In this document: positions 4,781-21,538 of the stretch, piece after piece
How the letters are laid out: each line of letters begins with the position of its first letter
How positions within the stretch are numbered: position 1 is the stretch's first letter
Source of the DNA: a virus
Length of the DNA stretch: 21,538 nt
Strand: one strand, 5' to 3'
Virus record (IMG/VR): IMGVR_UViG_3300035698_017755
Location: 1 to 21,538 of that record
Program-made: the position numbers and the translations under genes
The notes under the pieces: model-generated
Seen by the model: the letters and a program-made list of their open reading frames with translations, nothing else
The model's database searches: none
What the model was told of the DNA's origin: nothing

Positions 4781-6739
4781 TTACGCTATAGTATCAATGG
4801 TAATAGCTCCTGCAGCGTCACAGAAACATTGTGCGAACCAATTCGTTCCGTCACACCAAACTTTTACCATATCTCCCGGCGTAGCAACTCCATTCTTGAA
4901 GTTGATCCTATCGGCTCCGGCAATTTCACTGTCTCCGTCCCCTCCTGATCCTTCATGAACCGTACCAATAATAATATTGGCCCCTGCATTAGTTGTGATA
5001 ATCATATCAGCAGTAGCAGGGGCTAAAGTTATAATAAACGTATAGTTCAGTCCAGCAGCAGGTGCAGGAAGTGTTGATGTAAACTCTGTGGCATGAGTCA
5101 AGAAGAATACAGAGCCTGATTCAGATGCGGCAATTACATTAGTAGTAACTACAACTTCAGTAAGATCTTTGTATCCTAGCGTTCCAGTTACAGTTGCACC
5201 AGCAGCAGAAACAGAGAAAACGGATGTATTATCATCATTACAATTGATGAACTTACCGTCTCCGGTCATTGTTCCTCCACCATTATCTAAATAGAGCATA
5301 TCAGCAGTAGTGATTGCGTCCATTGTAACCTTTATACCAAATCCATTTGTTGTAAGTCCAGCCATGACAACATCAATTCCAGTAGCAGCACCAGTAGTTA
5401 CATCAGGAATAGAAATACTAAGTCCTGTTGGTGTTGATGTAGCATCACCTGCACTAATTAATTCTAAAATTTCCCCATCGTGAGTAATTGTATTAGCATT
5501 AATTCTTAACATAGCACCAAGAGTGATACTAGTACTTGAAATATCAGCAATAGCAGCCAAAGTGGTTGCTGTATTATTGATAATTGTAGATGTTGCTCCT
5601 GAATTACTATTGCTAGTAACAGAAAAATCACCTCCTGCTAGTATCACATCTCCATCATTAACGATAATATCCCCAACGGTCAAAGTAAGTGCAGCAGTAC
5701 CTTCGGCACTTCCTGCAATTGTTACAGCTCCATTTTCGGCTATAGTAAATACATTAGCTGATGCTGTTTCATCGTAAGCACGAAAATAATATCCTCCGCT
5801 TAATGTTCCCTCTGTAACAGAAACTAATATTCCAGTACCAGAAGTCATTGCATCTAAAGTAAGGTGTATTCCTGATCCATCAGTAATAGTGTCAAAATCC
5901 ATTAAAGCTCCTATTCCAGTAGTAACCTTACAGTTCATCGTAAAAGTTGTGTCTCCCGCATCTTGTGTTGTGTCTATAACAAAGACATCTCCGCCATCGC
6001 CATTTTCTCTAATTAAAAAAGCTTCGGCGTCATCTACATCAACAATCACAACACCTTGAATAGTTGCTGAACTTGCCATTGCTACGGCACCAGTTAAAGT
6101 GACGGCTCCGGTGATTTCTCCGGTTCCTCCGATTACAACATTTCCTGAAGCGTCAACATCGAAATTGTCGTAATTGATTATACCAGTTGTCCCTACGATA
6201 GCGTTTGCACCGACATTTAAGGCATTGGTAATCCCGGCATCAGATGCATCAATCGCATCTGTGATCGTTGCCCCTGATCCAGTAGTTATAATAGATAAAG
6301 CATCCGTAAACACTGAACTAGCAGCGTAAGCATCGAGTACTAAACCACTATCAACAGTAGCACCAGAAGTATTGCGAATTTGGATATCGTAATCATTTGA
6401 AGAATCTGACAAATTCCAGACAACATCAGCAGCATCTACGGCAATCGTAGCGCCTGCGGAATAGGCATCATCAAGTGATCCTCCACTTCCTCCTCCTCCT
6501 CCAAAGACTACCCATCCTTGAGTTGTATAACCTTTATAGGCGTCTAGGGTAGAGTCGTAGAATAACTCAGCTACGGCGGGGGATGTTGGGTTTGTGGTTA
6601 GATTGGCAATAATTGTTCCTCTGTCTGCGGATGAAGAAGTCTGAAAACCGGGGGCATACACGACATCCCCGAAGGTTGTAAAAGCGAGTCTTTCTTCCTT
6701 GAATCCGCAAAACCCAGGTTGTATTTTTTTAAGTTCCAT
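4781..6739 (-). CDS. Large repetitive beta-structured fibre / virion surface protein
   Basis: This 652-residue protein is rich in Gly, Ala, Thr, Ser, Asp and Val. Its middle part (about 70-530) is built of many short strand-turn units (such as NVVIGGTGEITGAVTLTGAV), as in beta-helical fibre shafts. The last 100 residues (from LPAPAAGLNYTFIITLAP) form a separate domain I have often seen at the end of predicted phage fibre proteins, ending in VWCDGTNWFAQ. The N terminus (KKIQPGFCGFKEERLAF) would be the attachment region. It is the first gene after the major capsid protein, so a head fibre is as likely as a tail fibre. The codons use more G and C than the early genes. A TTAAC motif lies 11 nt before the ATG. 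Confidence 0.55.
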   Translation of the reverse strand: MELKKIQPGFCGFKEERLAFTTFGDVVYAPGFQTSSSADRGTIIANLTTNPTSPAVAELFYDSTLDAYKGYTTQGWVVFGGGGGSGGSLDDAYSAGATIAVDAADVVWNLSDSSNDYDIQIRNTSGATVDSGLVLDAYAASSVFTDALSIITTGSGATITDAIDASDAGITNALNVGANAIVGTTGIINYDNFDVDASGNVVIGGTGEITGAVTLTGAVAMASSATIQGVVIVDVDDAEAFLIRENGDGGDVFVIDTTQDAGDTTFTMNCKVTTGIGALMDFDTITDGSGIHLTLDAMTSGTGILVSVTEGTLSGGYYFRAYDETASANVFTIAENGAVTIAGSAEGTAALTLTVGDIIVNDGDVILAGGDFSVTSNSNSGATSTIINNTATTLAAIADISSTSITLGAMLRINANTITHDGEILELISAGDATSTPTGLSISIPDVTTGAATGIDVVMAGLTTNGFGIKVTMDAITTADMLYLDNGGGTMTGDGKFINCNDDNTSVFSVSAAGATVTGTLGYKDLTEVVVTTNVIAASESGSVFFLTHATEFTSTLPAPAAGLNYTFIITLAPATADMIITTNAGANIIIGTVHEGSGGDGDSEIAGADRINFKNGVATPGDMVKVWCDGTNWFAQCFCDAAGAITIDTIA

Positions 6740-6780: not shown

Positions 6781-7761
6781 TTAGGAAGCATAAGCAGCTC
6801 CACCACCCATTGACCCAAATATACCTCTCCAATCGTAATGACCTCCTGACCATGAAGCGAAGACATCAAAACTCATAGATCTATTTCTATGTTCAAAATT
6901 ATTTGGGACTAATTGCTCCATTTCCCAGAAAAATAGTTTGGCTCGATTAACATCAATCATGAACCAGTAATTATCATTATCACAACCGTAATCGGAGCTT
7001 AAATATAAATTCTCAATTACTGTAACCACACCGCCACCGTACACATTGATATTATTATCAGCACTATCAATTTTTAGTTCTGATCCAGATAATTCTTTAG
7101 CTTTTAAAAGAAGAGCTGGTCCCACCATAAGAACTATTTTAGGTGATAGTCCCATTGATATACCATCATCTGTTTTCTGTTGTACTAGTGCTTGTCTGGC
7201 AGTATCAAACTCGGTATAAGTAAGTGCTGCACCTGTCGCACTTGCATTAGATTGAGAGCTTTGTCCTGGTACTCTGGTAGGATGAACCGTACTACACATA
7301 GGCACTAAATCACCGTATCTGGTAATTTTAATCCCATTTGCACTTGTAGGCTGATCAGTATCAAAAGCGTGAATCCACGGTTGAGATAATAATAAATCTT
7401 TTGTTGCGTTACCTGATCGGACTAAATCACCGTATTCGTCAAGATCTGGTTGGATTTTACGTAATTGAAGAGTTTGGGCGGTAACGGTAATACCACCATC
7501 GAATATAGTAGGAATCGCTTCTGTCTGATACCCAGGGTATCTGTTCTTCTCATTCACTTCACCTCCTTGATGATTAGCTTGTAAAAATCCAGTTCCTGGA
7601 CGGTTAGTGAATATTTTTCTTGCTTCTTTATCGTTAAAGTTTTTGTAAACACCTAATCTCATTAACTCGGATTGGTATTGATCGTAGTTCTGTACGAACG
7701 AATCCGCAAAGTCTACTTCTACACCTTTGATATAATTGGCGTAAGTTGATAGATTTTCCAT
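6781..7761 (-). CDS. Major capsid protein (HK97-fold, inferred)
   Basis: The protein is 326 residues long, a common size for HK97-fold capsid proteins without a cleaved scaffold domain. It contains an N-terminal helical arm, an FDTARQALVQQ helix (185-195), and a SPKIVLMVGPALLLKAKEL segment (206-224) of the kind found in the A-domain of many capsid proteins. The end, SGGHYDWRGIFGSMGG, has the DWR-x-x-x-GS pattern common near capsid protein C termini. Position supports the call: terminase, portal, scaffold-like and decoration-like genes precede it in the usual order. The leader carries two copies of an 11-bp repeat, and TTAAC lies 11 nt before the ATG. The call is fairly firm, although the fold is inferred. 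Confidence 0.8.
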   Translation of the reverse strand: MENLSTYANYIKGVEVDFADSFVQNYDQYQSELMRLGVYKNFNDKEARKIFTNRPGTGFLQANHQGGEVNEKNRYPGYQTEAIPTIFDGGITVTAQTLQLRKIQPDLDEYGDLVRSGNATKDLLLSQPWIHAFDTDQPTSANGIKITRYGDLVPMCSTVHPTRVPGQSSQSNASATGAALTYTEFDTARQALVQQKTDDGISMGLSPKIVLMVGPALLLKAKELSGSELKIDSADNNINVYGGGVVTVIENLYLSSDYGCDNDNYWFMIDVNRAKLFFWEMEQLVPNNFEHRNRSMSFDVFASWSGGHYDWRGIFGSMGGGAAYAS

Positions 7762-8385: not shown

Positions 8386-9045
8386 CTAACTGAAATGATT
8401 GTTACGAATTTCAATGGCTTTTGTTGCTCGCTCCTTATCCCATCCTTTGGTGTTCATTATTTCCTGAACTTCTTTGCTTGCGCTGGATAAAGAACTACCT
8501 CTTGAGCTTCCACCCCCTAATTTTTGGATAAATTTTTCTTTTTCGTGGTCAACCTCATCTGAATCTCTGCGTACATGTGAGTACAATAGACTCATAGCAA
8601 CATTAACATCCTTAATTAATCCAACTTTGACTAGGGCTTTAGCCGATTTTTCGATATATTCTCCTCCTATTTTATCCCAGCCGTCTTCTCCGATACTTCT
8701 TTCTTTTTTGAAATTATCTATGGTGTTTTTAAAAGATAATTCTTTCTGGTTTTTGTGATAAATTCTTTCGTTGTATTTTTCAAGATCTTTTTTAGTTATT
8801 GGTGTATTATCATCAATTGCGTCAATTTCTTTATTAGCTAATTGTTGTTTTAAATCTTCTACTTCAATAGTTCTGTCTTTAAGTTTTCCGACAAGATCTT
8901 GAAATCTTTTTTCCCCTTTTTCTTCATTTTCTGGTGGCGAACCTTCAGGAGGAGTCTCAGGTGGTTTGGTTTCTTCAGGAGGCGAACCTTCAGGAGGAGT
9001 ACCTTCAGGAGGAGTACCTTCCTCTTGGATAATATTTTCAGCCAT
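8386..9045 (-). CDS. Probable capsid scaffolding protein
   Basis: The 219-residue protein begins with an acidic proline-rich region of repeated TPPEG / SPPEE units (about residues 8-38). A charged coiled-coil follows (FQDLVGKLKDRTIEVEDLKQQLANKE), then helical sequence and a short C-terminal basic helix (GWDKERATKAIEIRNNHF). A disordered acidic start, coiled-coil middle and basic end, together with a place two genes before the major capsid protein, are the usual traits of phage scaffolding proteins. Their basic C-terminal helix touches the capsid protein. It is the first gene after the terminator at 9123-9145, so it needs its own promoter or read-through. Confidence 0.65.
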   Translation of the reverse strand: MAENIIQEEGTPPEGTPPEGSPPEETKPPETPPEGSPPENEEKGEKRFQDLVGKLKDRTIEVEDLKQQLANKEIDAIDDNTPITKKDLEKYNERIYHKNQKELSFKNTIDNFKKERSIGEDGWDKIGGEYIEKSAKALVKVGLIKDVNVAMSLLYSHVRRDSDEVDHEKEKFIQKLGGGSSRGSSLSSASKEVQEIMNTKGWDKERATKAIEIRNNHFS

Positions 9046-9074
9046 AGTTTTTTAAAGTTATGAATAGATCACTA

Positions 9075-9102
9075 ATTTTATTGGCAATTAGGAAGCCTAC
9101 AA
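9075..9102 (-). promoter_or_regulatory. Weak candidate promoter before the scaffold gene
   Basis: On the minus strand TTGTAG (9102-9097) and TAAAAT (9080-9075) are separated by 16 bp. It lies just after the intrinsic terminator and before the scaffold ATG at 9045, where a new promoter would be useful. The -35 box matches only three of six consensus bases, and such boxes arise easily by chance in AT-rich DNA. Confidence 0.25.
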
Positions 9103-9122
9103 TCTTTTTTACTAAAAAGACG

Positions 9123-9145
9123 AAAAAACCTCTGTAATACAGAGG
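9123..9145 (-). terminator. Intrinsic terminator after the small anti-defence-like gene cluster
   Basis: On the minus strand CCTCTG, loop TATTA and CAGAGG are followed directly by TTTTTT. This is a standard rho-independent terminator shape. It separates the portal-to-9256 transcript from the scaffold-capsid genes. The stem is only 6 bp, so partial read-through into the capsid genes is likely. Confidence 0.75.
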
Positions 9146-9242
9146 CTTTTAAAGGCTTTCATTTATTTGAAGTCCCAAGAATAGGCAAGAAAAAACAAAC
9201 AGTGAAAGCCATTAGAAGCTTCTGTTTTTTCCTATTCTTGGG
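9123..9242 (-). ncRNA. Structured non-coding RNA candidate: long hairpin with loop-tail pseudoknot plus terminator
   Basis: This is the only gene-free stretch of about 200 bases in the structural region (9046-9255). Read on the minus strand, CCCAAGAATAGG (9242-9231) pairs perfectly with CCTATTCTTGGG (9185-9174). Inside it, an A6-CAG run can pair with CTG and a T6 run, giving an irregular extended stem. The loop holds GGCTTTCA (9210-9203), which is the exact complement of TGAAAGCC (9161-9154) just past the hairpin, so an H-type pseudoknot is possible. The stretch ends with an intrinsic terminator. No good promoter lies upstream, so it may be the processed 3' end of the preceding operon. A small element with 12-bp inverted ends is an alternative; no target duplication is visible. 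Confidence 0.45.
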
Positions 9243-9255
9243 GTGGTTTAAAAGA

Positions 9256-9645
9256 TCAATTACAGTCTAATCTTTGTGCTTTGCATAATTCAGTATAAAT
9301 TTCTCTATAAGCCTTATTTTTTTGATTTATTTTTTCATCACTTGTTTTTACAAATTGTTCTGTAAGGAGATTAATATTGTATAAAATAAACTTTTCTATA
9401 ATGATTATTCCTGAATTATTTCTGGCGTATAATTCTGTGACTGCCGTTAGTTCTTCATCAGTTACTTTGAGCGTTGATCGCTCTAACGCTGTCAATAACA
9501 GATGGGGTAAAGGCTGGTCATTAAAATATTTTAGTGCTCTTATTTCGGCATTTAATCGCTTAATTTCTTGATCTTTATTCCTTATAAGTTTGACATACTT
9601 ACTTGACTTAAACAATAAATTAAATATGGTTTCAATAAACTTCAT
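9256..9645 (-). CDS. Unknown 129-residue protein beside two anti-defence-like genes
   Basis: I recognise no family. Residues 1-15 are a hydrophobic and basic helix (MKFIETIFNLLFKSS), perhaps membrane-associating. Residues 18-42 form a charged helix (RNKDQEIKRLNAEIRALKYF). The rest looks helical, with ALERSTLKVTDEELTAVTELYARN in the middle and a KINQKNKAYREIYTELCKAQR end. It is the last gene before the structured RNA and terminator, 12 bases after the stop of the Acb2/Tad1-like gene and in one run with it and the Tad2-like gene. The neighbours suggest an accessory role against host immunity, but nothing in the protein itself shows this. TTAAC lies 11 nt before the ATG. Confidence 0.55.
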   Translation of the reverse strand: MKFIETIFNLLFKSSKYVKLIRNKDQEIKRLNAEIRALKYFNDQPLPHLLLTALERSTLKVTDEELTAVTELYARNNSGIIIIEKFILYNINLLTEQFVKTSDEKINQKNKAYREIYTELCKAQRLDCN

Positions 9646-9657
9646 AAAAAGTTTTGG

Positions 9658-9900
9658 TTAATTTTTATTCATAATTTCTTCGTCTCTCTTTTTATTTAAA
9701 TCTTCACCTCCTAAATTACCCATTTCTTTGCCTAGCCACATTTTGGCTTCTTGTAGCTTAGTAATAACTAAACTTCTCTCTCTTGATCCACCTTCAAATA
9801 ACTTAAGTGATTCAGTAGTTTCTTGAATGTTCTCTCTTAATATTCGGCAACCATCTAATGTTAAAACATTCTTAGTGTTAATTTGGTTTTCACTTGTCAT
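9658..9900 (-). CDS. Acb2/Tad1 hairpin-family-like small protein (cyclic nucleotide sponge candidate)
   Basis: The 80-residue protein has a central SRERSLVITKLQEAKMW motif (residues 39-55) after a predicted helix (GCRILRENIQETTESLK). From memory, this SRE-x-SL-x-x-T-x-L-x-EA-x-x-W signature is the hallmark of the small phage proteins grouped as the Acb2/Tad1 hairpin domain (formerly DUF7681). Proteins of that group bind immune signal nucleotides: Acb2 takes up cyclic oligonucleotides of CBASS, and Tad1 takes up glycocyclic ADP-ribose of Thoeris. The family usually ends in ANAGIARN or similar; here the end is WLGKEMGNLGG plus a charged tail. It lies 39 bases after the Tad2-like gene. The ligand cannot be predicted, and many family members are untested. 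Confidence 0.6.
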   Translation of the reverse strand: MTSENQINTKNVLTLDGCRILRENIQETTESLKLFEGGSRERSLVITKLQEAKMWLGKEMGNLGGEDLNKKRDEEIMNKN

Positions 9901-9921: not shown

Positions 9922-9947
9922 ATGGGTAAAAAAATAAAATTAAACTT
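9922..9947. repeat. 26-bp direct repeat, copy at the 3' end of the Tad2-like gene
   Basis: It matches 10201-10226 in 25 of 26 positions, including 21 identical bases in a row. It contains the last codon and stop of the Tad2-like gene (minus strand GTT TAA) and the A/T-rich spacer that follows. The two copies lie 279 bp apart and bracket the gene. Confidence 0.85.
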
Positions 9948-10194
9948 CCATTACAATCCATTCTTCAGAAAATAAGTCATGATTAGATGGCCAATAAGGC
10001 ATTCTTTTATATCCATCTTTTTCGTCTTTACAAGGGATATTAAAATAAATATAAGAGACGTTCATTTTACTATGTTCGTCTGGGGTTTGCATCTCTAGAT
10101 ACATTCCTGACTGATTGTTCCAACTGGCATTTGAGACTTTTTCACCATTCTTAAGCTTGTTTAAAGCTGTTGAAAAATCAAAGGTAACTGGCAT
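9940..10194 (-). CDS. Tad2-like DUF2829 protein (anti-Thoeris sponge candidate)
   Basis: The protein has 84 residues, the usual size for DUF2829. It begins FDFSTALNKLKNGEKVSNASWN (residues 5-26), the typical F-x-x-AL-x-x-LK-x-G-x-x-V-x-x-x-x-W start. It then has GMYLEMQTPDE (30-40), a YIYFN strand (48-52), and ends with PYWPSNHDLFSEEWIVMEV. The last part is the W-x-PS-x-x-DL-x-x-x-x-W signature (W68, D73, W79). Tad2 proteins are DUF2829 tetramers that bind glycocyclic ADP-ribose and so block Thoeris; some homologues also bind cyclic dinucleotides. It follows the portal gene and is bracketed by 26-bp direct repeats, which suggests it was gained as a unit. The DUF2829 call is firm; the ligand is inferred. 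Confidence 0.75.
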   Translation of the reverse strand: MPVTFDFSTALNKLKNGEKVSNASWNNQSGMYLEMQTPDEHSKMNVSYIYFNIPCKDEKDGYKRMPYWPSNHDLFSEEWIVMEV

Positions 10195-16895: not shown

Positions 16896-17103
16896 TTAAT
16901 TATCTAATTCTTGAAGCTTCTTATAATATTCTTCTTTTGTTAGTTCTATCCCATAAATAGCATATTTAAGATTATTTTCATTGAAACACTTATAACACTC
17001 AGAACACTCAAAACACTCATAACAATCAGAACACAATCAGAACACAATCACAACACTCAGAACAATCAGAACAATCAGAACAATTAATATTTTGTTTTTT
17101 CAT
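16896..17103 (-). pseudogene. Frameshifted cysteine-repeat protein with 9-bp minisatellite
   Basis: The ATG at 17103 opens MKKQNINCSDCSDCSECCDC, then runs out of frame and stops at 17028-17026 (25 residues). Shifted by +1 nt, the reading continues with the same pattern (CSDCYECFECSECYKCF) and then an ordinary tail ending KKLQELDN at 16896. The array is eleven units from 17082 to 16980. Nine units are 9 nt long and encode Cys-x-x. Two adjacent units (17046-17025) are 11 nt with an extra TG each, and these four extra bases break the frame. With 9-nt units throughout, the protein would be 67 residues with a Cys at nearly every third place, probably metal-binding. It may be a mutant, a phase-variable gene or a sequencing error. 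Confidence 0.6.
16980..17082. repeat. Eleven-unit 9/11-bp minisatellite
   Basis: Minus-strand units all start with TGT. Most are TGTTCTGAT/G or one-base variants of 9 bp, and two neighbours are TGTGTTCTGAT of 11 bp. The array lies inside the cysteine-repeat gene. Short tandem units of this kind change copy number by strand slippage. Confidence 0.85.
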
Positions 17104-18745: not shown

Positions 18746-19840
18746 TTATACGTTTTTAAGGGATGGGTTATTTTTAATAGTTTCTTCAATTTTTTCTTGT
18801 TCTAATATTTTGAATTGATCTTCAAATGCTTTATCAATCTCCTTGCGGTCTTCTTCGTTCCATTTTTTAGATTTTTCAAAATTCTTAATTGCATTGGCTA
18901 AAAGTTCTTTGTCTGGAATTTCTTTAATTGCTTCACTAAATGTTTTTTTATTAACTGCGGAAAATTCAACTTTTACTGTTTCTGTTTGATTCGCCTTCTT
19001 AATATCATCACAAATTATTTCAGGCTCTTTTTTTTCTAAATATTTAATATTTTTATTATTAATTGCATCTAATTTAACTTTTAGATGTTCTGAAATTCTT
19101 TTTTTATCTTCATCTGAAAATTTTGAAAAAATCGGGGGTAAAGTTCTTTTAATTTTATCTAATTCATCAAAATCATTAGCTTCATTAATTTTAGTCAAAA
19201 TATCTTCGACTGTAATTTCTTGTTGTACTTCAATTGATCCCGCCATTGATTCCTCTGCTGTAATATTCATTATTTCCCTATCTTCTGCATGAGAACACCC
19301 AACAGGGAATGCAACCTTCAAACACCGTCTTGTTGCTCTCCCCTCTGCCATTTGTTCCACAAATAACGTTGATACGAATTTTCGGGCAATTGAACTAGGG
19401 TCTGCACTCGCTTCTCTTTCGAATATAACCTCACGGCCTCCTATTAATCTTACAATTGTACATTTATACCGGAAATATTTTTTAGCTATATCTTTCTCGA
19501 TAAGTTCAGTTTTGTTAGATATTAAACTTCCGTCATTCTGAGCATTGAATAAATGTCCGTCTAGGGTGATATAATTCTCGCCCTCTAATACTTGTAAATG
19601 CTTGAGTAGTGGATTTAGCCCCATTGTTCGACAAGATACTACATAACTGAACGCCTCATAAATTGTCAAAGGTCTTTCTTCTTTCCCTTTTTCCTTGGTT
19701 TTTTTGATATTCAAAACCACAAATACGTCCCGGGTGATTTCTTTCTTTACTTGGCCTTCATAGGTTGAAGCTAAACTAGCTAAAATGTTTTTAGTTCGGT
19801 CTTCGGATGTCTTTAGTGCTTTTTCTGTGTTTTCTTTCAT
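18746..19840 (-). CDS. RecT/Bet-like single-strand annealing protein
   Basis: The 364-residue protein has a core at about 40-190. It contains AFSYVVSCRTMGLNPLLKHLQVL (63-85) followed by YITLDGHLFNAQNDG (90-104). These match the C-x-x-x-GLNP-x-x-K and later D-G-x-x-x-x-A pattern of phage Bet/RecT proteins. A later MAEGRATRRCLKVAFP (164-179) is like the R-A-x-x-RAL-x-x-AFP segment of the superfamily. Residues 200-364 form a charged helical tail that could bind the partner nuclease. The recombination function is to anneal complementary single strands; the neighbouring exonuclease would supply them. ATAAC lies 11 nt before the ATG. Rad52-like families are less likely. The likeness is clear in pattern but not strong. 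Confidence 0.6.
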   Translation of the reverse strand: MKENTEKALKTSEDRTKNILASLASTYEGQVKKEITRDVFVVLNIKKTKEKGKEERPLTIYEAFSYVVSCRTMGLNPLLKHLQVLEGENYITLDGHLFNAQNDGSLISNKTELIEKDIAKKYFRYKCTIVRLIGGREVIFEREASADPSSIARKFVSTLFVEQMAEGRATRRCLKVAFPVGCSHAEDREIMNITAEESMAGSIEVQQEITVEDILTKINEANDFDELDKIKRTLPPIFSKFSDEDKKRISEHLKVKLDAINNKNIKYLEKKEPEIICDDIKKANQTETVKVEFSAVNKKTFSEAIKEIPDKELLANAIKNFEKSKKWNEEDRKEIDKAFEDQFKILEQEKIEETIKNNPSLKNV

Positions 19841-20750: not shown

Positions 20751-20790
20751 ATTAATTTTTGTTAATAAATATTACTTTTCTAGTTCTTTT
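20751..20790. repeat. Repeated spacer plus gene end, copy 1
   Basis: This stretch and 21330-21369 are nearly identical for about 36 bases. They include the TTAAC leader of the following gene and the last codons of the preceding repeat protein gene (ELEK). This marks a tandem duplication of gene plus spacer. Confidence 0.7.
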
Positions 20791-21329
20791 TTCCTTTCTT
20801 CTAAAGCTTTTTTATTCGCCCCAGGGATAAAACGAGCAAATCTAAAACACGCATCCCCATCCCCAATCTCAAGAACTCTTTTTTGAAGTTTTTGAATATC
20901 TGCTCCTTTAACATAATTAGCAAACACATAGCAATCCCACCCATCCCCAATTTCAAGAACTCTTTTTTGAAGTTTTTGAATATCTGCTCCTTTAACATCT
21001 TGAGCGAACATAAAACAATCATCCCCATCCCCAATCTCAATAACTCTTTCTTGTAGTTTTTTTATATCTGCACCTGGAATATTTTCAGCAAAACTTAAAC
21101 AATCCCCCCCAGTACCAATCTCCACTACTCTTTTTTGTAATTTTTTGATATTTGCTCCTTTTATATTTTGAGCAAACTCAAAACAATTCCACCCAGTCCC
21201 AATCTCAAGCACCCTTTTTTGGAGTTTTTTGATATCCGCTCCTTGGATATCTCTAGCCAATACATAACAATCCCAACCATCCCCAATCTCAAGAACTATT
21301 TTTTGTTCTTTTTTTTGTTCTTCATCCAT
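20772..21329 (-). CDS. Protein of six 28-residue repeats (complete)
   Basis: The 185-residue protein consists of a short acidic-basic start (MDEEQKKEQKI) and six repeats of 28 residues, KRVLEIGDGWDCYVFA then a helix ending GADIQKLQ. Fixed positions are EIG-x-G-x-x-C and FA, GA and L near the end. The period of exactly 84 bp with high DNA identity suggests recent growth of the array. Similar repeats with GD-x-x-x-FA-x-x-x-x-GAD-x-x-x-L occur in phage and bacterial proteins as I recall; they would form a helical solenoid that binds partners. Each repeat keeps one Cys at the same place, so a row of cysteines would line one face. Function is unknown. Confidence 0.65.
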   Translation of the reverse strand: MDEEQKKEQKIVLEIGDGWDCYVLARDIQGADIKKLQKRVLEIGTGWNCFEFAQNIKGANIKKLQKRVVEIGTGGDCLSFAENIPGADIKKLQERVIEIGDGDDCFMFAQDVKGADIQKLQKRVLEIGDGWDCYVFANYVKGADIQKLQKRVLEIGDGDACFRFARFIPGANKKALEERKKELEK

Positions 21330-21369
21330 ATAAATTTTTGTTAATAAATATTATTTTTCTAGCTCTTTT
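21330..21369. repeat. Repeated spacer plus gene end, copy 2
   Basis: This is the partner of 20751-20790. The gene end and spacer between two repeat-protein genes match the next junction, which shows that the unit was duplicated in tandem. Confidence 0.7.
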
Positions 21370-21538
21370 ATTCTTTTTTGGAGAGCTTTTTCATCCGCTC
21401 CTTTTACATAATTAGCAAATCTGAAACAATCATCCCCATCGCCAATCTCAAGAACTCTATCCTGTAATGCTTCAATATTTGCTCCTTTTACATAATTAGC
21501 AAAACTAAAACAATCATACCCATCACCAATCTCAATTA
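21351..21538 (-). CDS. Second 28-residue-repeat protein, C-terminal part (start outside window)
   Basis: The open frame runs in from the window edge and gives two more repeats of the same type (EIGDGYDCFSFANYVKGANI and EIGDGDDCFRFANYVKGADE), then KALQKRIKELEK and a stop at 21353-21351. It is a paralogue of the downstream gene: same repeat, same Cys position, same ending. The N-terminal part and total repeat number are unknown. Confidence 0.6.
   Translation of the reverse strand, partial: IEIGDGYDCFSFANYVKGANIEALQDRVLEIGDGDDCFRFANYVKGADEKALQKRIKELEK

Follow-up and report, generated by a model that had tools for sequence, protein, structure and literature searches.

Transcription attenuators of the leader and riboswitch type consist of an intrinsic terminator placed after a strand able to pair with its 5' arm, by which the terminator is prevented. 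Hairpin-terminator 3' ends of phage transcripts, of the RNase III or lambda sib type, form another known class, in which a long hairpin right after the stop codon is followed by a terminator, and exoribonuclease-resistant RNAs stop a 5'-3' exonuclease by a ring-like pseudoknot around a multi-way junction. A pRNA family is included in Rfam, as is Mu-gpT-DE (RF03012), a structured RNA near phage Mu gpT-like capsid genes. Short pseudoknot-capable RNAs ahead of a Rho-independent terminator are represented by the type III antitoxin ToxI, according to one report (PMC5086642), and phage phiTE produces a pseudo-ToxI RNA against ToxIN, as described in another (PMC3475682).

The window, that is, the whole stretch of 21,538 nucleotides analysed here (positions 1-21,538 of IMG/VR record IMGVR_UViG_3300035698_017755, G+C 33%), carried nearly all of its large open frames on the minus strand, and the relevant RNA was therefore taken to be that of the minus strand. 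Read 5' to 3', this RNA ran from the stop codon (9258-9256) of a 129-aa ORF through a gap of about 14 nt, a long hairpin, a 12-nt linker, UGAAAGCC (9161-9154) and UUU to a terminator with U6. About 78 nt separated the terminator from the ATG (9045) of a scaffold-like ORF, which was followed by a 172-aa ORF and then by a Mu gpT-like capsid gene, and the genes transcribed ahead of the terminator were the portal gene, two anti-defence-like genes and the 129-aa ORF. The spacer (9046-9255, 210 nt) had been singled out as the only sizeable gene-free one of the structural region, and it was indeed the largest gap among the called genes between 1 and 16852, where the next largest measured 78-79 nt. 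The 129-aa ORF had no relatives in the phage collection and its single-sequence structure model was unusable (mean pLDDT 42), and the 219-aa scaffold-like ORF matched no family and nothing in the phage collection. Two further genes separated the portal gene from the scaffold-like one and directly preceded the RNA: a Tad2-like gene (9940-10194, Pfam 2.9e-12), and a small ORF in which the Acb2/Tad1 hairpin motif was recognised (9658-9900, 6.7e-5, under the curated cut-off). Elsewhere in the window, the minus-strand frames at 20772-21536 were built of repeats of about 28 aa (84-bp units), and an array of 9-18-bp units of the AACAATCAG type lay at 16994-17084, within a gap between called genes.

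Table 1. Positions in the window of the RNA elements and of the genes beside them.
Feature	Position	Strand	Remark
Outer stem S1, 5' arm, 12 bp	9231..9242	-	exact complement of 9174-9185
Outer stem S1, 3' arm, 12 bp	9174..9185	-	exact complement of 9231-9242
CUUG bulge, 4 nt	9186-9189	-	between S1 and inner stem
Inner A/U-rich stem, 5' arm, 8 bp	9223..9230	-	pairs with 9190-9197, probability ~0.8 (nested ensemble)
Inner A/U-rich stem, 3' arm	9190..9197	-	nested ensemble
Antiterminator-like strand (loop plus 2 nt of inner stem), CAGAAGCUUCUAAUGGCUUUCA	9203..9224	-	19/22 complementary to 9140-9161
Loop target, UGAAAGCCUUUAAAAGCCUCUG	9140..9161	-	UGAAAGCC + UUU + most of terminator 5' arm; 19/22 complementarity
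Intrinsic terminator hairpin	9150..9124	-	12 pairs (4 G-C), loop of 3, -14.1 kcal/mol, U-tract to 9123
129-aa ORF, no assigned function	9256..9645	-	stop codon 14 nt ahead of hairpin
219-aa scaffold-like ORF	8386..9045	-	downstream of RNA; name inferred from position and composition
Mu gpT-like major capsid gene	6781..7761	-	two genes downstream of RNA

The original prediction had described three exact helices, and all of them were confirmed from the letters: one of 12 bp (S1 in Table 1), one of 8 bp (9154-9161 with 9203-9210) and one of 6 bp (9129-9134 with 9140-9145), the last lying next to A6 at 9123-9128, which is U6 on the minus strand. The 12-bp and 8-bp helices interleave, as claimed. 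The 12-bp stem was found to be extended by 8 A/U-rich bp, giving a long hairpin of 12+8 bp with the CUUG bulge and a 25-nt loop, and the terminator comprised 12 pairs rather than the 6-bp helix first described. Its G-C-containing stem stood directly before U6 in the coding orientation, as in intrinsic (Rho-independent) terminators, and it was the strongest minus-strand terminator-like site among those listed in the window. The 12-bp stem is thus as reliable as the terminator, and the description of the locus as a structured RNA with an intrinsic terminator at its end was supported.

The minus-strand fold of 9256-9106 reached -44.9 kcal/mol (z = -5.2) and none of 200 dinucleotide shuffles was as good; the plus-strand fold gave z = -3.65, with 0/200 shuffles as good, and in a scan of both strands corrected for G+C the locus was the top fold residual of the window. 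By length alone, an exact 12-bp repeat was present in 48 of 200 whole-window shuffles; a 12-bp repeat of equal energy was found in 3/200, and an interleaved pair as strong in none of the 200. Helix length alone is unimpressive at 33% G+C, but the strength and the combination are not. Given the stem, the conditional P of the 8-bp helix was about 0.003 by energy and 0.017 by length.

This 8-bp helix between loop and tail is real, but it is not the full extent of the pairing, being part of a 22-nt complementarity that enters the 5' arm of the terminator. The longer complementarity was first suggested by a one-sequence covariance model that gave a weak hit (E = 0.089) on the other strand of this locus. 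It was non-random by statistics that are somewhat generous, since they follow a data-prompted search: 9224-9203 and 9161-9140 were complementary at 19/22 positions, a count that none of 20,000 loop shuffles attained, none of the equally spaced segment pairs of the window outside the locus (n = 8,489) reached even 18/22, and the energy of the duplex between loop and target, -23.0 kcal/mol, was reached by a fraction of 0.0002 of 5,000 loop shuffles and by 3 of 4,764 window draws, draws overlapping the locus included. Half of the target (11 of 22 bases, 9150-9140) belonged to the 5' arm of the terminator, so the extended loop pairing and the terminator would be mutually exclusive, and the loop is therefore an antiterminator-like strand. 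When the upstream 115 nt of 89 distinct terminator-like sites from the comparison loci and the window were scored for pairing with the arm, the present site ranked second (z = -3.29, 0/100 shuffles), with its arm clipped to 8 pairs by the detector. The top-ranked site was in locus L050, the site just behind was on the plus strand near 5550, inside a minus-strand gene, and z <= -3.2 was found at 3 of the 89 sites. An upstream strand complementary to the terminator 5' arm beyond chance, as attenuators have, was present here and was not unique to this site.

The balance between the competing forms was estimated along the transcript, the opening of S1 (12 bp) being treated only crudely. With the 3' end at 9142-9133, where the 5' arm is made and the 3' arm is absent, the loop-paired form would win unless its penalty exceeds 17-24 kcal/mol, and when the terminator is complete (3' end 9124) the break-even penalty drops to 13-14 kcal/mol. 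In the energy model, this shift of stability is the behaviour expected of a terminator/antiterminator pair. The complete 22-bp duplex would not fit the closed 25-nt loop, and part of S1 must open. As for the pseudoknot proposed for the full-length RNA, no clear advantage in stability over the nested fold emerged, the two being equal at a loop penalty of 12.8 kcal/mol. The start penalty of Dirks and Pierce is reportedly 9.6 kcal/mol; at this value the pseudoknot would win by 3.2 kcal/mol, and at 15 it would lose by 2.2. Within model error the two forms are predicted to be equal, with the break-even penalty inside the usual range, and in a cruder estimate, with the hairpin-loop term left in, the pseudoknot with the full stem came out less stable by 1.2 to 6.2 kcal/mol. 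In the nested ensemble the loop favours its own inner hairpin, and a 12-nt linker beside a 20-bp stem would probably be tight for a pseudoknot.

We consider the locus to be an attenuator-like junction of the terminator/antiterminator type before the scaffold-like and capsid genes, a reading based on one sequence to which a probability of about 45% is given, and which was ranked ahead of a static mRNA 3' end, then of a functionless inverted copy, and then of an autonomous RNA. The stable fold (z = -5.2) and the position just ahead of the scaffold-like and capsid genes are points for it. Minus-strand transcription of the portal gene, the two anti-defence-like genes and the 129-aa ORF would arrive at the intrinsic terminator; the long hairpin would form first, upstream of the terminator, with a loop nearly complementary to the terminator 5' arm and the preceding 11 nt, and the emerging 5' arm could be captured by this loop as a pseudoknot-like antiterminator. 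Quick capture would delay the terminator and allow the polymerase to continue into the scaffold-like and capsid genes, whereas transcription would stop if the loop were locked in its own inner hairpin or displaced by the 3' arm. Since the completed nested form with the terminator is about equally stable, such antitermination would be kinetic. The pairing may form in the cell, alter read-through and thereby set scaffold and capsid output. A more particular version is rather doubtful, namely that the antiterminator in the loop of the early-forming hairpin catches the terminator arm in a transient pseudoknot as it emerges, and that the proportion of cargo to scaffold/capsid transcripts is fixed by a purely kinetic switch or by a factor opening the inner hairpin. 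If the attenuator reading is true, read-through from upstream or cargo genes into structural genes would be metered in a compact, sequence-defined way that needs no antiterminator protein, and what looks like a pseudoknot followed by a terminator can be two halves of one switch; if it is false, the locus amounts to a usual terminator accompanied by a strong hairpin.

The strongest rival is a static mRNA 3' end, in which the terminator simply closes the upstream transcript and the scaffold and capsid genes are transcribed from a promoter of their own that has escaped notice; the long hairpin, whether or not the 8-bp pseudoknot forms, would make the 3' end more stable or be a site of processing of the RNase III type. 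A terminator that outranks all other minus-strand sites listed in the window, a hairpin beginning 14 nt past the stop codon, a very stable nested fold and a possible full-length pseudoknot all agree with such an end, which has an appreciable chance of being correct. It leaves the complementarity of 19/22 between loop and terminator arm unexplained, and from the terminator to the scaffold start (9046-9123) no sigma-70-like promoter above chance was found (8/12; equalled by 751 of 1,000 shuffles), though host promoters may differ. Given this result and the strongest listed minus-strand terminator, it is plausible that scaffold and capsid are expressed through read-through. Against the attenuator reading, the scaffold gene may be driven by an unseen promoter, perhaps a non-standard one, as the gene starts are without Shine-Dalgarno sites. 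TAAC began 10-16 nt before the start codon at 16 of 28 minus-strand gene starts, compared with 4.9% of random minus-strand 15-mers, an enrichment reached by 0 of 1,000 mononucleotide shuffles, and GGAG, GAGG and AGGA were absent at -20 to -4 from all 28; the motif looks like a non-Shine-Dalgarno initiation signal of the host.

Template switching during replication leaves near-identical inverted short copies about 40 nt apart, and the loop could be such a mutational copy of the terminator region, without function, with the stem as a second chance or mutational repeat. The short inverted copies at this distance, the occurrence of exact 12-bp repeats by length in 48/200 window shuffles and the reliance on a single sequence are consistent with this origin. 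However, the two repeats are interleaved and not nested, so two events would be needed, the stem is strong in energy (3/200 shuffles), and no other large spacer than the one occupied by the locus exists in this tightly packed structural region. A functionless copy is unlikely. A small RNA acting independently on targets of its own, such as an anti-defence decoy or an RNA like the type III antitoxins that accompanies the Tad2-like and Acb2/Tad1-hairpin-like genes, is improbable: the anti-defence-like genes adjoin and the pseudo-ToxI of phage phiTE is a precedent (PMC3475682), but ToxI-like tandem pseudoknot repeats were absent from the spacer, the flanking ORFs gave no ToxN-like or other toxin match in Pfam, PADLOC and NCBIfam, no family of Rfam 15 reached its gathering score in the window (Phe_leader came nearest, with 29.9 bits vs 55), and no promoter of its own was recognised. 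The original suggestion of a small RNA found no positive evidence. A packaging RNA of the phi29 type, also suggested, is disfavoured by the same Rfam result in the window and by the ordinary terminase large subunit of the phage. The GC-skew keeps its sign near 9.1 kb, and a replication-origin reading of the locus was rejected on this ground.

In IMG/VR, no close relatives were found for the capsid, the portal, the 364-aa protein (18746-19840) and the 129-aa ORF, in searches from which records very near the window's own may be excluded. TerL relatives showed at most 40% in the best segment and capsid relatives (n = 80) at most 32%, and the portal was found in 0/15 TerL- or Acb2-linked records; by sequence, the phage appears isolated among those sampled. 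A homologous RNA by DNA similarity was rejected, with no plasmid match at E <= 1 and, among phages, 69 records at E <= 10 that matched in short pieces only (best E 0.2 among the 20 matches listed). The single-sequence covariance model, applied to 111 loci, gave nothing below E = 0.24 outside the window. The 12-bp arms with a 30-60-nt gap occurred in no IMG/VR viral contig record and, with a 20-50-nt gap, in one stretch among genome contigs, an intergenic palindrome of Pseudanabaena (L104 3370-3416) with the same arms and an unrelated loop, located by ORF reading between histidine-kinase-like and dehydrogenase-like genes. This match was treated as coincidence because of the unrelated loop and the different gene setting, and a host-derived or mobile hairpin was rejected. 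In the capsid loci inspected (50 of 81), gaps of about 200 nt recurred some 3 kb upstream of the capsid, with a terminator-like site within such a gap in 7 of the 50. When aligned, 16 of these gaps resembled short reading frames rich in Lys, preceded or accompanied by AAAGGAG sites, rather than RNA, and a conserved RNA spacer before the capsid in relatives was rejected. In L009 (2715-3320) and L012 (1595-2308), the terminase matches were split by additional stretches of about 400 and 520 bases, respectively, at nearly the same point (query residues 230-303); inteins or other insertions may be responsible.

Among the known systems, Mu-gpT-DE shares with the window RNA a structured RNA near Mu gpT-like capsid genes. 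Of five distant capsid relatives scanned, four had it after the capsid match (L023 5594-5646, L033 6623-6668, L063 6624-6669 and L075 6629-6679), whereas the window RNA lies upstream of the capsid gene, is without an RF03012 match, and no such RNA was found around that gene. The predicted fold, a hairpin plus the terminator, is without the multi-way junction of exoribonuclease-resistant RNAs, and nothing positive was found for the exonuclease-blocking 3' end raised in the original prediction. With ToxI and the phage pseudo-ToxI, the locus shares a short pseudoknot-capable RNA before a Rho-independent terminator, but it has no tandem repeats, no toxin gene was found past its terminator, and its stem is much longer. 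The long hairpin right after a stop codon, followed by a terminator, is shared with phage 3' ends of the lambda sib type; here, the loop complements the terminator arm. With the leader- and riboswitch-type attenuators, an intrinsic terminator after a strand able to pair with its 5' arm is shared, while no leader peptide, T-box or aptamer was recognised here and no ligand or sensor was identified. No report of the arrangement was found among open-access papers. The locus further differs from the known attenuators in that the competing strand is held in the loop of a strong upstream hairpin, between phage genes.
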